Source: Propioniciclava sinopodophylli
GTDB taxonomy: Bacteria > Actinomycetota > Actinomycetes > Propionibacteriales > Propionibacteriaceae
Direction: 5' to 3'
Assembly: GCF_004324755.1 (NCBI RefSeq)
Contig: NZ_SDMQ01000001.1
Span: 62,001-126,000 of the forward strand
DNA length: 64,000 nucleotides
A model generated the notes under the pieces. It was not told the DNA's origin. It made no database searches and worked only from the letters and a program-made list of their open reading frames with translations. The position numbers and the translations under genes were made by a program. This document shows positions 32,652-37,325 of the stretch, in pieces. Each line of letters opens with the position of its first letter. The first letter of the stretch is position 1.

Positions 32652-32847
32652 CGCGGTTACCGCCGACAGGGTTGGACATCGTTTGCCGCCCCGGTTCCGG
32701 GATCCCTCGCGTGGTCGGGACGCACCCCGAACGGGCTGCTGCTGGTCGCCGTCGTCACCGCCGCCCTGTGCCTGGGCATCCTGGCCGTCCGGCAGTGGGG
32801 CGCCCGACTTGGCGCCGTAAGCGGTACCGACTCCTATGATCGGGGGC
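32652..32847 (+). promoter_or_regulatory. Intergenic region with SDR promoter
   Basis: TATGAT at 32835-32840 lies seven bases before the SDR ATG, the best -10 box in the window. TTGGCG at 32809-32814 could be a -35, although the spacer is 20 bases. One frame across about 32705-32820 encodes a hydrophobic stretch (GLLLVAVVTAALCLGILAV) with no start or family match, which I do not call a gene. Confidence 0.5.
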
Positions 32848-33585
32848 ATGACCTCCACCGCCGTCGTCACCGGAGCCTCCAGCGGGATCGGGGCCGCCAC
32901 CGCGCGCGCGCTCGCGGCCCAGGGCTACCGCGTCCTCTGCGCCGCCCGCCGCATCGACCGGATCGAGGCGCTCGCCGCCGAGATCGGCGGCGAGGCCGTG
33001 GCCTGCGACATCACCTCGGACGCCGACGTGGCCGCCCTCGCGGAAGCCGCCGGGCCCGGCGTGGACCTGCTCGTCAACAACGCCGGCGGCGCCGTTGGGC
33101 TGGAGCCGCTGGAGAACGCGGACCTCGAGGCCTGGACGACCATGTACGAGACGAACGTGCTCGGCTCCGGCCGCGTGACCAAGGCCCTGCTCCCCGCCAT
33201 CGAGGCGGCCGAGGGCACCGTGGTGTTCGTCACGTCGACCGCAGCCGAGGCGGCGTACGAGAACGGGGCCGGCTACAACGCAGCCAAGGCGGGCGAACGG
33301 ATGTTGGCGGGCGCGCTGCGCCTGGAGCTGTCCGGACGCCCCGTCCGCGTGTGCGAGGTGGCGCCGGGCATGGTGCACACCGAGGAGTTCTCGCTCGTGC
33401 GCTTCCACGGCGACCAGGCGAAGGCGGACGCCACGTACGCGGGCGTCCCGGACCCTCTGGTCGCCGAGGACGTGGCCGACGCGATCGCCTGGGTGGCGTC
33501 GCGTCCGGCGCACGTGAACATCGACCGGCTGGTGATCCGGCCCCGGGCCCAGGCGGCGAACCACAAGGTCCACCGCGTCACCTGA
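32848..33585 (+). CDS. Short-chain dehydrogenase/reductase (SDR) family oxidoreductase
   Basis: A 245-residue classical SDR. The cofactor loop is VVTGASSGIGAATARAL, the NNAG motif is LLVNNAGGAVG, and the catalytic Ser-Tyr-Lys set is seen as TST and YNAAKAG. Basic residues after strand 2 (CAARRIDR) suggest NADPH preference. It resembles the NADP-dependent 3-hydroxy acid / serine dehydrogenase group (YdfG-like); substrate is unproven. ATG 32848 directly follows a TATGAT -10 box by seven bases, so a leaderless message is likely. It converges on the transcarboxylase operon. Confidence 0.88.
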   Translation: MTSTAVVTGASSGIGAATARALAAQGYRVLCAARRIDRIEALAAEIGGEAVACDITSDADVAALAEAAGPGVDLLVNNAGGAVGLEPLENADLEAWTTMYETNVLGSGRVTKALLPAIEAAEGTVVFVTSTAAEAAYENGAGYNAAKAGERMLAGALRLELSGRPVRVCEVAPGMVHTEEFSLVRFHGDQAKADATYAGVPDPLVAEDVADAIAWVASRPAHVNIDRLVIRPRAQAANHKVHRVT

Positions 33586-33603: not shown

Positions 33604-33969
33604 TCAGCCGAGCTCGATGAGGGCCTCGCCGCCGGCGACGGACTCGCCCTTGGCGACGAGGATGCGGGCCACCGTGCCGTCAGCCGGAGCGGTGATCTCG
33701 GTCTCCATCTTCATGGCCTCGAGGACGCAGAGGACATCGCCGGCCTTGATGGCCTGGCCCTCCTCGACGAGGATGCGCGACACCGAGCCCGACAGGGGCG
33801 CGGTGACGGCGTTGGCCGACGTGGCCTGCACGGACGCCGTGGTCACGACCGGGGTGTTCATGCCCCCCGCGCCGCCGATCACGATCGAGCCGACGGGGCG
33901 CTTCTCCTCCGCCTGGACGTCCACCTCGATGTCGTAGGGAATACCGTTGACGGTCACTTTGAGCTTCAT
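33604..33969 (-). CDS. Methylmalonyl-CoA carboxyltransferase 1.3S (biotin carrier) subunit
   Basis: A 121-residue biotinyl protein. The N-terminal MKLKVTVNG segment is nearly identical to that of the Propionibacterium 1.3S subunit, where it tethers the carrier to the 12S and 5S enzymes. The biotin domain has the acceptor Lys87 in [10 protein letters not shown]. In transcarboxylase the carrier shuttles carboxyl from methylmalonyl-CoA (12S) to pyruvate (5S), giving propionyl-CoA and oxaloacetate. It is the last gene of the operon, 16 bases after the small 88-residue ORF. Stand-alone biotin carriers also serve acyl-CoA carboxylases, but context decides. Confidence 0.93.
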
Positions 33970-33985
33970 AAGAGTACCTTTCGGT

Positions 33986-34252
33986 TCACCGCAGGTGGGG
34001 CGGCGTGCGGTCGTGCTGGGAGGCGCGCGTGGTCGACTGCCAGGCAGCCGAGCGCGTGAAGTGGGCCTGGCGACGCTTGGCGCGGTGACCGAGGTAGGCG
34101 GCGACGGCCGCCGAGATGGCGACCACCACCTCCTCGGGCACGTTCTGCGCGTTCAGCAGCTTGATGCTCTTGATCTCCGCCTCGAGGCCCTCGACGCGAT
34201 CGGTGAGCTTCCTGACCGCGGCCAGCAGCTCGGCGTTGATGTCGTCCGACAT
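33986..34252 (-). CDS. Small transcarboxylase-associated protein (unknown function)
   Basis: An 88-residue protein. The N-terminal half is a predicted amphipathic helix or coiled coil ([20 protein letters not shown]). It is followed by [17 protein letters not shown] and a basic tail with Trp and His ([16 protein letters not shown]). The second half recalls the small subunits of Na+-translocating biotin decarboxylases, which help assemble the complex, but this is weak similarity seen by eye. ATG at 34250-34252 has a GGGGAGGG site. It lies between the 12S and 1.3S genes, 14 bases after the 12S stop, and is surely cotranscribed. Confidence 0.8.
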
Positions 34253-34266
34253 GGTTCCCTCCCCGA

Positions 34267-35835
34267 TCACACCGGACCGAGGCCGTGCTTCTTGGCCGGC
34301 CGCAGCTCACGCTTGTTGACGAGGATCTCCAGCTGCATCGCGATGTAGCGACGCGTGTCGGCCGGGTCGATGACGTCGTCGACCAGGCCACGGGACGCGG
34401 CCACGAACGGCGTGGAATAGGTGTCCTTGTACTCCTGGACCAGCTCGGCGCGGCGTGCGTCCGGGTCGTCGGCGGCCTCGATCTCCTTGCGGAAGACCAC
34501 GGCGGCCGCACCCTCGGCGCCCATGACGGCGATCTCGGCGGTCGGCCATGCGTACACCGTGTCCGCACCCATGTCCTTCGAACACATCGCCAGATAGGCG
34601 CCGCCGTAGGCCTTGCGAAGCACGACGGTGATCTTCGGGACGGTCGCCGCCGCGTAGGCGTACAGCATCTTCGCGCCGTGGCGGATGATGCCGCCGGCCT
34701 CCTGGGCGACGCCCGGCAGGAAGCCGGGGACGTCCACGAGCGTCACCAGCGGAATGTTGAAGGCGTTGCAGAAGCGGATGAACCTGCTCGCCTTGTCCGA
34801 GGAGTTGATGTCGAGCACGCCCGCCATCACCTGCGGCTGGTTCGCCACGATGCCGACCGAGCGGCCGTTGACGCGGCCGAAGCCGATCACGATGTTGGTG
34901 GCGTAGCCGGCCTGCACCTCGAGGAAGTCCTCGTGGTCGACGATGCGCGCGATGACCGTGCGGACGTCGTAGCCCTTGTTGCCGTCGGTCGGCACCAGGT
35001 CGTAGATCGACGGGTCGTGCTCGACATACGGGTCGGGGTCGATGATCGGCGGGTCTTCGGTGTTGTTCTGCGGCAGGTAGCTCAGCAGTTTCTGCGCCAC
35101 GAGGATGGCCTGGGCGTCGTCGTCCACCACGAAGTGGTTGACGCCGGAGACAGCCATGTGGGTGTCCGCACCGCCGAGCTTGTCGGCCGTGACGTCCTCA
35201 CCGGTGACCTGCTTGATCACGCCGGGGCCCGTGATGAACATGTGGGCCTTGCGCGTCTGGATGATGAAGTCGGTCAGCGCCGGGGAGTACGCGGCGCCGC
35301 CGGCGCAGGGGCCCGCGATGATCGAGACCTGCGGAACGGCGCCGGACAGCTTCACGTTGGTGTGGAACACCGCGCCGTAGCCGTGAAGGGAGTCGATGCC
35401 CTCCTGCACGCGCGCGCCGCCGGAGTCGTTGATGAAGACGAAAGGCGTGCCGCACTTGAGGGCGGCGTCCATCATCTGCGCGACCTTCAGGCTGTGCACC
35501 TCGCCGGCGGACCCGCCGACGACGGTGAAGTCCTGGCTGGCGATGTGCACCGGGCGCCCCAGCACCGTGCCGGTGCCGGTCACCACGCCGTCGGCGGGCA
35601 TGTCGGCGGTGTCCATCCCGAACGCGGTCGTCCGGTTGCGGCGGAAGAGGCCGACCTCGGTGAACGAGTTCTCGTCAACCAGAGCGGTCACGCGCTCGCG
35701 GGCGGTCATCTTCCCGGCGTCGCGCTGCTTGGCCAGGCGGTCCTCGCCGCCGCCCTGCCGGGCGGCGAACCGGGCCTTGTTGAGTTGCTCGACCTGCTGC
35801 TGCATGGGAACGGGCTTCTTGGCCACGGTCTTCAC
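34267..35835 (-). CDS. Methylmalonyl-CoA carboxyltransferase 12S subunit
   Basis: A 522-residue carboxyltransferase of the acyl-CoA carboxylase beta type with two crotonase-fold halves. Oxyanion-hole regions are seen in GGSAGEVHSLK, INDSGGARVQEG and the second-half LVDVPGFLPG with AYGGAYLAMCSKDMGAD. It transfers carboxyl from methylmalonyl-CoA to biotin on the 1.3S subunit. Identification as the transcarboxylase 12S rather than PccB rests on the flanking 5S and 1.3S genes. It overlaps the 5S stop by four bases. Confidence 0.95.
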   Translation of the reverse strand: MKTVAKKPVPMQQQVEQLNKARFAARQGGGEDRLAKQRDAGKMTARERVTALVDENSFTEVGLFRRNRTTAFGMDTADMPADGVVTGTGTVLGRPVHIASQDFTVVGGSAGEVHSLKVAQMMDAALKCGTPFVFINDSGGARVQEGIDSLHGYGAVFHTNVKLSGAVPQVSIIAGPCAGGAAYSPALTDFIIQTRKAHMFITGPGVIKQVTGEDVTADKLGGADTHMAVSGVNHFVVDDDAQAILVAQKLLSYLPQNNTEDPPIIDPDPYVEHDPSIYDLVPTDGNKGYDVRTVIARIVDHEDFLEVQAGYATNIVIGFGRVNGRSVGIVANQPQVMAGVLDINSSDKASRFIRFCNAFNIPLVTLVDVPGFLPGVAQEAGGIIRHGAKMLYAYAAATVPKITVVLRKAYGGAYLAMCSKDMGADTVYAWPTAEIAVMGAEGAAAVVFRKEIEAADDPDARRAELVQEYKDTYSTPFVAASRGLVDDVIDPADTRRYIAMQLEILVNKRELRPAKKHGLGPV

Positions 35836-37325
35836 GCCCTTTCCACGACGACGTTGTGTTCGCGTCCACCGAGGGACACCTTGTAGGTGATCGGGCCCTT
35901 CACGGCGCGATCGTCATCGCCCTTCGCGGCGGCCTGGCTGGCCATCTGCTCGGGCGTCTTGCCGACGTTCTTGGGGCCGTCGGCGCGGTTCTCGAAGAAC
36001 CCGGGCGCGACCGAGGGGAACATCGCGTAGGTGAGTACGTCCTCGTCGGAGCCGTCGTTGCCCGGCAGGGCCGTGGCCTCCGCGACCAGCTTGTCCCATT
36101 CGGGCTCGAGCAGGTCGGCCGGACGCTGCGTGATCGGCTCCTTCTTGGTCTGTGCGCGGGCGACCTCGACGACCTCGGGGTTCCGCTCCCCGATGCACTC
36201 GCCGTAGTAGCCGAGCATCAGGTCGGCGAACTCGCCGGTGAGCACCTTGTACTTGCCCATCAGGACGTTGAACACCGCCTGGGTGCCGACGATCTGCGAG
36301 CTGGGCGTCACCAGCGGCGGGTGTCCGGCGTCCGCCTTGACCAGGGGAACCTCGGCCATGACCTCCCTGATGCGGTCGCCCGCACCCTGGGCCTTGAGCT
36401 GGCTCTCCATGTTGGAAAGCATGCCGCCGGGGATCTGGCTGGAGAAGATGTCGGTGTCGACCAGGGTCGCCGACTCGAACTGCGCGTACTTGGGGCGCAC
36501 CTTCGCGAAGTGGTCGCGGATGCGCAGCAGCCGGTCCATGTCGAGGTCGGTGGTGTACTCGGTGCCCTCGAGCATCGCAACGAGCGACTCGGTCGGGTTG
36601 TGGCCAGGGCCGAGGCTCATCGAGGAGATAGCGGTGTCGACCACGTCGGCGCCGGCCTCGATCGCCTTCATGAGGCTGACCAGCGTGACACCGGTGGTGG
36701 AGTGGCAGTGCACGTTGACCTGCACGTCGCCGTAGGTGTCCTTGATGCCCTTGACGACGTCGTAGGCGGCCTGCGGCTGCAGGAGGGCGGCCATGTCCTT
36801 CAGCGCGATGGACTCCGCACCCATGTCGAGCAGCTGGCCGGCGAGCTTGATGTAGCCCTCGGTGGTGTGCAGCGGCGAGATCGTGTAGCAGATCGTGCCC
36901 TGGGCGTGCTTGCCGGTCTTCTTGACCGCCTGCATCGCCCGGGCCATGTTGCGCGGGTCGTTGAGGGCGTCGAACACGCGGAAGACGTCCATGCCGTTCT
37001 CGGCGGACTTCTCGACGAAGCGCTCGACCACGCCGTCCTCGTAGTGGCGGTAGCCGAGCAGGTTCTGCCCGCGCAGCAGCATCTGCAGGCGGCTGTTGGG
37101 CATCAGCTCACGGAACGTCCGGAGGCGCTGCCAAGGGTCCTCGTTGAGGAACCGGATACAGGCGTCGTACGTCGCGCCGCCCCAGCACTCGACGCTCCAG
37201 AAACCGGCCTGGTCGATGTCGGCGCACGCGTCGACCATGTCTTCCATGGCCATGCGCGTGGCCATCAGGGATTGGTGTGCATCACGAAGCGCGACCTCTG
37301 TCACGCCAATGGTTCGTGGAGTCAT
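35832..37325 (-). CDS. Methylmalonyl-CoA carboxyltransferase 5S subunit
   Basis: A 497-residue pyruvate carboxyltransferase that carboxylates pyruvate from carboxybiotin to form oxaloacetate. The TIM barrel has VALRDAHQSLMATRM with the first metal ligand, Lys176 in SIALKDMAALL as the carbamylated lysine, and metal ligands His207 and His209 in VNVHCHSTTG. The PYC_OADA-type domain follows at the C-terminus. It is the first gene of the operon (5S, 12S, small ORF, 1.3S). The ATG at 37323-37325 is preceded by a weak AGGATGG site. Transcription start is not obvious in the 170-base gap to the divergent glycosyltransferase. Confidence 0.95.
   Translation of the reverse strand: MTPRTIGVTEVALRDAHQSLMATRMAMEDMVDACADIDQAGFWSVECWGGATYDACIRFLNEDPWQRLRTFRELMPNSRLQMLLRGQNLLGYRHYEDGVVERFVEKSAENGMDVFRVFDALNDPRNMARAMQAVKKTGKHAQGTICYTISPLHTTEGYIKLAGQLLDMGAESIALKDMAALLQPQAAYDVVKGIKDTYGDVQVNVHCHSTTGVTLVSLMKAIEAGADVVDTAISSMSLGPGHNPTESLVAMLEGTEYTTDLDMDRLLRIRDHFAKVRPKYAQFESATLVDTDIFSSQIPGGMLSNMESQLKAQGAGDRIREVMAEVPLVKADAGHPPLVTPSSQIVGTQAVFNVLMGKYKVLTGEFADLMLGYYGECIGERNPEVVEVARAQTKKEPITQRPADLLEPEWDKLVAEATALPGNDGSDEDVLTYAMFPSVAPGFFENRADGPKNVGKTPEQMASQAAAKGDDDRAVKGPITYKVSLGGREHNVVVERA

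Follow-up and report, generated by a model that had tools for sequence, protein, structure and literature searches.

A small protein encoded within transcarboxylase operons is related to the scaffold subunits of sodium-pump decarboxylases and probably serves as a soluble fourth subunit

Transcarboxylase is a classic multienzyme complex, and decades of reconstitution work on it were built on three subunits: 12S, a hexamer, together with 5S and the biotin carrier 1.3S. We analysed a transcarboxylase operon in a 64,000-nt stretch of Propioniciclava sinopodophylli DNA (the window; source genome 3.07 Mb in 43 contigs), where an open reading frame (ORF) for an 88-residue protein, here P0001, stands between the 12S and 1.3S genes. 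Judged by sequence comparison, this small ORF probably encodes a separate, soluble fourth transcarboxylase protein, a scaffold or assembly subunit of the same ancestry as the decarboxylase delta, gamma and epsilon subunits.

The gamma subunit of the decarboxylase OAD, a beta3-gamma3 complex, suggests what such a protein might do. Passages of PMC7274780 report that deletion of gamma C-terminal residues 61-84 severely reduced co-purified alpha and left the beta-gamma contact intact. The same passages propose that the gamma tail binds the association domain of OadA, forming a structure like the pyruvate carboxylase tetramerisation domain, and call the delta subunit of MCD/GCD a scaffolding homologue of OAD gamma. 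For actinobacterial acyl-CoA carboxylases, the ACC epsilon subunit is reported to raise activity and support assembly (passage of PMC13118682).

The transcarboxylase of P. freudenreichii has been described as a polycistronic gene with four coding sequences (PMC2909200). According to the relevant passage, which calls the 12S truncated, the N-terminal 524 aa of Swiss-Prot Q8GBW6 correspond to PFREUD_18860 and the C-terminal part of the entry to PFREUD_18850, at 98% similarity. PFREUD_18850 lies between 12S and 1.3S and is the same gene as the small ORF of the window, which is therefore already known in print, where it is taken for the C-terminal part of 12S. Here we treat it as a conserved protein in its own right, with kinship to the scaffold subunits of decarboxylases. 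The first-pass annotation of the window had stated that no such subunit belongs to the classical description of transcarboxylase. That statement stands, although the ORF itself had not gone unnoticed. A literature search, mostly without subscription journals, found no paper on a fourth transcarboxylase subunit.

All four genes lie on the minus strand in the order 5S, 12S, small ORF, 1.3S, as first annotated, so that the three genes by which we recognise a transcarboxylase operon (5S, 12S and 1.3S) stand together.

35832..37325, minus strand: 5S subunit (carboxyltransferase towards pyruvate), 497 aa; NF008984, 972.7 bits (NCBIfam cut-off 827); PDB 1rqb family, E 1.2e-253.
34267..35835, minus strand: 12S subunit (methylmalonyl-CoA carboxyltransferase), 522 aa, GTG start; Pfam Carboxyl_trans, 1.5e-194; PDB 1on3, E 6.4e-241.
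34255..34264, minus strand: purine-rich, ribosome-binding-like stretch of the small ORF, read in the sequence.
33986..34252, minus strand: small ORF, 88 aa, ATG start, proposed soluble transcarboxylase scaffold subunit on the basis of conservation, linkage and dN/dS.
33604..33969, minus strand: 1.3S biotin carrier subunit, 121 aa; Biotin_lipoyl, 2.7e-20; PDB 1o78, E 7.1e-20.

The start of 12S overlaps the end of 5S by 4 nt, and GGGGAGGGAA stands directly upstream of the small-ORF ATG. The PDB listings for 12S, 5S and 1.3S have no entry code in common, the parts of the complex being present singly. P0001 is a protein of 9.75 kDa and isoelectric point (pI) 9.8, and its ORF is single-copy in its own genome.

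Small ORF and operon were found together across genomes. We sampled 197 genomes of the family: a match to the small protein (E <= 0.01) is present in 147 and 5S (E <= 1e-100) in 148, with both in 137. Of these 137, 130 have the small ORF 3′ of 5S, both genes on one strand (median gap 1599 nt), and seven have the two on separate contigs. Eleven of the 148 genomes have 5S without the small protein. The contig ends within or just before 12S in seven of them; three belong to one genus (G007, G079, G101) with a best 12S relative at 50% or none, and no transcarboxylase-type 12S was found there; the last, G176, is taken up below. Ten genomes have the small protein without 5S, and in the four examined (G010, G100, G128, G196) the small ORF follows 12S. 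A class-wide sample of 394 genomes, scored on 13 candidates per genome for the small protein and 3 for 5S, yielded the small protein in six genomes, the same six that have 5S (E <= 1e-120). Four of the six belong to other families: the order is 5S, 12S, small ORF in all four, with 1.3S next in three and the contig end cutting the fourth. Fisher tests of co-occurrence in the two samples gave 5.6e-22 and 2.0e-13, with related genomes treated as independent.

Individual loci give the same picture. Where the 3′ end of 12S is complete (75 loci), the small ORF (profile E <= 1e-3) is present in 74, the exception being that of G176; most of these loci were fetched via the small protein itself, so 74/75 is a biased figure. 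Free of that bias are the 5S searches and seven family loci fetched via 12S (L031-L036, L067), all of which contain it. The median distance from the 12S stop to the start of the small ORF is 11 nt (-4 to 60), and from its end to 1.3S it is 17 nt (8 to 136; 73 loci). The proteins are not mere copies of each other, 68 of the 74 being distinct over the last 60 residues, with six pairs identical there. The search for orthologues in other transcarboxylase operons, which the first-pass annotation had put forward as a check, thus found ORF and operon co-occurring almost perfectly and not an ORF that is absent or degenerate elsewhere.

The ratio of nonsynonymous to synonymous substitution rates (dN/dS) of the small ORF is 0.20-0.38 against eight of nine same-genus relatives and 0.73 against the ninth, values that indicate purifying selection. 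Together with the distribution across genomes they rule out a spurious ORF and bear out its description as a conserved-looking protein.

Profile comparisons relate the C-terminal half of the protein to decarboxylase subunits. We collected 43 delta proteins by their position behind mmdA, a membrane-like helix (Kyte-Doolittle mean at least 2.2) and OadB in the locus, a selection independent of P0001. Searched against the 853 ORFs of the window, their profile has the P0001 ORF as its top match (E 8.6e-6; the second stands at 1.3), and it also finds 40 of 40 family proteins (worst 5.4e-4). Comparison of the delta and family profiles with hhalign gave a probability of 96.3%, E 1.9e-9 and a score of 54.9 over 49 columns; 100 column-shuffled controls scored at most 14.6. 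By these measures the C-terminal half is homologous to the C-terminal domain of OadG/MmdD/MmdE, and what had been noted as features shared with assembly subunits of membrane biotin decarboxylases is, for this half, common descent.

The reverse search used a profile of the 40 family proteins on 10,258 six-frame ORFs from 73 foreign 12S/MmdA loci. It gave 54, 42 and 15 matches at E <= 1, 0.05 and 1e-3, against 2, 0 and 0 for reversed and 0, 0 and 0 for shuffled sequences. Excluding three matches (L083 and L087, in long open frames, and L053, at position 2), 51 foreign loci carry the domain, with 12S or 12S plus carrier just upstream, and 22 of the 73 have no match. A foreign set chosen by the query's own profile is circular, and the 43-delta profile is its independent version.

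Curated models respond at lower levels. Among 21 family members, five match OAD_gamma (best 0.02) and three match the MmdE model NF047904 at E <= 1, the best with 20.9 bits (cut-off 65), E 2.4e-4, over positions 7-52 of 57; P0001 itself has no MmdE match. Coiled-coil families match the 21 as often or better (e.g. DivIC, five members, best 0.0013). MmdE, the epsilon subunit of methylmalonyl-CoA decarboxylase, is likewise small and soluble, with a helix plus tail over most of its model, and relatives of 55-57 aa adjoin 12S/MmdA in Verrucomicrobia and Fibrobacterota. The transcarboxylase protein differs in adding an N-terminal coiled coil and in belonging to a soluble enzyme with 5S and without a sodium pump. 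MmdD/OadG (NF047902, TIGR01195, PF04277) share the homologous C-terminal domain and the place just behind the carboxyltransferase gene, but the small protein has no N-terminal membrane helix, its operon has no OadB, its score is under the cut-off and the OadG model ends before its W-x3-5-R tail. The small protein is not a member of MmdD/OadG but most likely works like one.

Four features can be placed on P0001.

34151..34249, minus strand: residues 2-34, predicted coiled-coil helix (AlphaFold2 helix 2-34; heptads; profile matches to PDB coiled coils).
34181..34198, minus strand: residues 19-24, R-V-E-G-L-E, coiled-coil motif of the trimer type (R-h-x-x-h-E), placed in register with the heptads.
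34091..34138, minus strand: residues 39-54, Ala-rich helix common to OadG/MmdD/MmdE (sub-threshold oadG_fam alignment; profile matches; model helix 40-54).
34025..34042, minus strand: residues 71-76, W-Q-S-T-T-R, the W-x3-5-R tail motif of MmdD/MmdE-type subunits (conservation of W71 and R76).

All seven consecutive heptad positions (9, 13, 16, 20, 23, 27, 30) are L, V or I. The strict form of R-h-x-x-h-E, which we take to be a trimer-type coiled-coil motif, occurs in 55 of 74 loci and in 26 of 41 representatives (<75% identity), against a mean of 0.87 and a maximum of 4 of 41 in shuffled sequences. The helical N-terminus seen at first pass is thus better described as a coiled coil than as a transmembrane helix. 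The Ala-rich stretch that follows is the hydrophobic segment also noted then; it is present but not membrane-like, the best 19-residue Kyte-Doolittle mean being 1.26 in P0001 and 0.11-1.73 across 40 family proteins, P0001 included. Residues 32-57 align, below threshold, to oadG_fam positions 58-83 of 84. The basic Trp/His tail was also correctly noted. Across 51 aligned proteins W71 is invariant and A48, A49 and R76 are conserved in at least 90%, and the W-x3-5-R tail is found in 68 of 74 transcarboxylase loci and 40 of 43 position-defined delta proteins. AlphaFold2 models P0001 as helices 2-34 and 40-54 with a mean predicted local distance difference test score (pLDDT) of 75.5 and a predicted template modelling score (pTM) of 0.36. 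Profile search found no PDB homologue of the small-protein domain, its best matches being coiled coils; a tautomerase, the best PDB match of a second search (E 0.022), was taken as chance.

Presence of a membrane helix follows presence of the pump. Among the 51 foreign loci, a membrane-like segment (Kyte-Doolittle at least 2.2) is found in 36 of 39 with OadB and 3 of 12 without (Fisher 1.3e-5, related genomes again treated as independent). The contigs of the three OadB-less loci with such a segment end within 0.7 kb. The threshold is arbitrary, with L100 (2.01) and L102 (2.06) close to it, and L084 has the soluble form together with OadB. Since the pumps join the shared C-terminal domain to a membrane helix and the soluble enzymes have it either next to a coiled coil or alone, one scaffold subunit may decide between cytosol and membrane. 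In three verrucomicrobial loci (L062, L064, L085) the genes for 12S, 1.3S and 5S are accompanied by that for a soluble relative of 55 residues, and the stretch examined contains no OadB. Their 5S is 43-46% identical to that of the window (in L085 it is cut by the contig end), and they appear to be transcarboxylase-like clusters outside Actinobacteria. They also have an epimerase-like gene and a biotin-ligase-like ORF (both by eye). Another verrucomicrobial locus, L089, has a membrane delta, a carrier and OadB and additionally encodes, some 3.2 kb downstream of its 12S, a relative of 5S (42%).

Other readings of the small ORF have to be weighed against that of a soluble scaffold subunit. The published one takes PFREUD_18850 for a C-terminal part of 12S that a stop codon has separated from the rest in some strains, and its basis is the similarity to Q8GBW6 cited above. 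The genome G067 (locus L111) shows how it could arise. Its 12S is 511/512 identical to the crystallised 12S, 1on3 (523 aa), and is followed by a TGA and, five codons later, by the small ORF without change of frame; reading through that stop would give a long 12S of 523 + 1 + 5 + 82 = 611 residues, which is the length of Q8GBW6. We argue that PFREUD_18850 was read as part of 12S because the two ORFs share a frame in P. freudenreichii. Yet the crystallised protein and the G067 12S both end in ...GNFPC, residue 523 of 523, exactly at the stop, an agreement unlike the remark, in a passage of PMC2909200, that 12S disagrees with crystal data. The frame of the small ORF relative to 12S is 2, 0 and 1 in 42, 17 and 15 loci; it thus differs in 57 of 74, with 12S ending at its own stop in each, so the two are separate proteins in general. 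Fusion with 12S was found in 0 of 74 loci, an apparent case in L083 being an open frame that is not in the 12S frame, and in other phyla the domain is encoded next to MmdA by a gene of its own. As a general reading this one is refuted, and we hold it to be highly improbable. Membership of ACC_epsilon (PF13822; AccE/PccE) is improbable too. This family of soluble small subunits also sits directly behind a carboxyltransferase gene, with a similar layout of helix, then W and R, and so is analogous in position and, from the passage of PMC13118682, in role. Its hhalign scores (20.0 and 17.4) are higher than those of any of 100 column-shuffled controls (at most 13.3 and 13.5), but the probability is only 13.6% over 9 columns, which is not significant and does not establish sequence homology. 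PF13822 is absent from the matches of P0001 and from those listed for its relatives (25 of 65 families), and a distinct ACC_epsilon stands next to another carboxyltransferase in the source genome. AccE5 has PDB structures, and none was found for the small-protein family.

That genome has three 12S-family genes (E <= 1e-80). One, at C33:95090-96840, has the ACC_epsilon match 36 nt behind it. Another belongs to locus L160 (C22:58000-69000), where positions 8680-5041 of the minus strand encode a 12S paralogue (52%), a biotin carrier, a delta-like membrane ORF of 146 aa and OadB, matched nowhere else in the genome (OadB occurs in 52 of 197 family genomes); this is probably a sodium-pump methylmalonyl-CoA decarboxylase beside the transcarboxylase. 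The 146-aa ORF has a membrane-like helix (2.79) and 31.2 bits with oadG_fam (cut-off 36.05); its C-terminus is unmatched by the family and delta profiles, a W-GR being seen there by eye only. With the small ORF of the window, each of the three carboxyltransferases thus has its own, different small partner gene. These loci bear on a further idea, that the small protein anchors transcarboxylase to the membrane as decarboxylase delta does. Homology to delta and the presence of OadB in the genome speak for it, but none of the 40 family proteins has a membrane-like segment (maximum 1.73) and OadB has an MmdA paralogue, membrane delta-like ORF and carrier of its own in one locus; we rule the anchor out as scarcely credible. 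The small protein could instead be a transient assembly or biotinylation chaperone and not a stoichiometric subunit. The classical description has three subunits and does not include it, purification could remove a protein so small and basic, and its gene is flanked by 12S and 1.3S. Against this, the passages of PMC7274780 present its homologues OAD gamma and MCD/GCD delta as stable components of the complexes, and we consider a chaperone unlikely, if not negligibly so.

For the soluble scaffold subunit a mechanism can be proposed. We infer that the small protein is made, binds 12S/1.3S in a set stoichiometry, trimerises and stabilises the complex. As loci without 5S have the domain next to MmdA, the shared partner should be 12S/MmdA or the carrier. 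All these enzymes have retained the C-terminal domain, made up of the Ala-rich helix and the W-x3-5-R tail, and it would most likely hold the 12S/biotin-carrier module. The coiled coil, probably trimeric, would replace the membrane helix that ties decarboxylases to the sodium-pump subunit. It would gather several C-terminal domains on the 12S hexamer, whose threefold axis a trimer would fit, and so stabilise the 12S-1.3S-5S assembly. Two further features of the operon enter here.

Within 35832-35900, minus strand: 5S C-terminal strand-hairpin module (KVSLGGREHNVVVE), from comparison of the tail module.
Within 33910-33969, minus strand: 1.3S N-terminal strand-hairpin module, related to the 5S tail, from module comparison.

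The two hairpins align in hhalign at 83.0% (E 9.1e-6, 16 columns), and a strict hairpin pattern is found at 59 of 74 1.3S N-termini and 24 of 48 5S C-termini, with about 0 in shuffles. They look as if each had kept half of a joint. Decarboxylase carriers begin with a similar hairpin (five read; that of the own genome has diverged). From these related hairpins on 1.3S, 5S and decarboxylase carriers we propose that the Ala-rich helix completes a composite module with them. Taken together, and only tentatively, transcarboxylase may be a four-protein machine in which small-subunit trimers sit on the 12S threefold axis, the coiled coil replaces the membrane trimer of the pump, and the Ala-rich helices complete a composite module with the 1.3S and 5S hairpins, resembling the pyruvate carboxylase tetramerisation domain in the manner proposed for OAD gamma and OadA. 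If so, soluble transcarboxylases and membrane decarboxylases would share one architecture, switched by swapping the N-terminus of one scaffold subunit. The small subunit would link soluble carboxyl transfer with sodium-pumping decarboxylation, and a conserved fourth gene product could explain the assembly or instability of the 26S form.

Several points weigh against a scaffold subunit of this kind. We found no experiment showing the small protein in purified transcarboxylase, and the three known subunits reportedly reassemble in vitro. P0001 scores 15.4 bits with oadG_fam (TIGR01195; cut-off 36.05) and 12.4 with OAD_gamma (PF04277; cut-off 27), and its best Pfam match is MLKL_N, an unrelated coiled coil (9.8e-4, 19.1 against a cut-off of 27). 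The two structure models are weak (pTM 0.36 and 0.50), and Foldseek of the 55-residue model found no match in the PDB (best E 8.4). A relaxed trimer motif is missing in 13 of 74 loci, the small proteins of L118 and L119 have no evident coiled coil, and W-x3-5-R is missing in 6 of 74 loci (L113, L114, L120, L138, L142, L150). The ORF behind the complete 12S of G176 is a different one, of 48 residues and with a hydrophobic stretch. We came across no evidence at the protein level for the small ORF: a passage of a cold-storage omics paper lists 12S and 5S (PMC3258244), and one on the P. acnes transcriptome reports high expression of PPA2007/2008 (PMC3124536), but the small ORF is mentioned in neither.

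Some of these loci have features of their own. That of G176 (L134/L170, G176:C155) has a 5S 86% and a 12S about 70% identical to those of the window, and its contig ends about 330 nt after the 48-aa hydrophobic ORF; it is possibly a transcarboxylase with a membrane-type partner, or an artefact of a metagenome-assembled genome. L113, L114 and L120 have small proteins of 70-74 aa with a GRxxTxxLxSA-like end in place of W-x3-5-R, a lineage with a changed tail. The three genomes of one genus with 5S and no small protein have an orphan 5S (L131 in G079, L133 in G101, L136 in G007), followed directly in L131 by a short-chain-dehydrogenase-like gene (by eye). A gene of the same description, also by eye, lies on the plus strand of the window at 32836-33585 and converges on the 1.3S gene.

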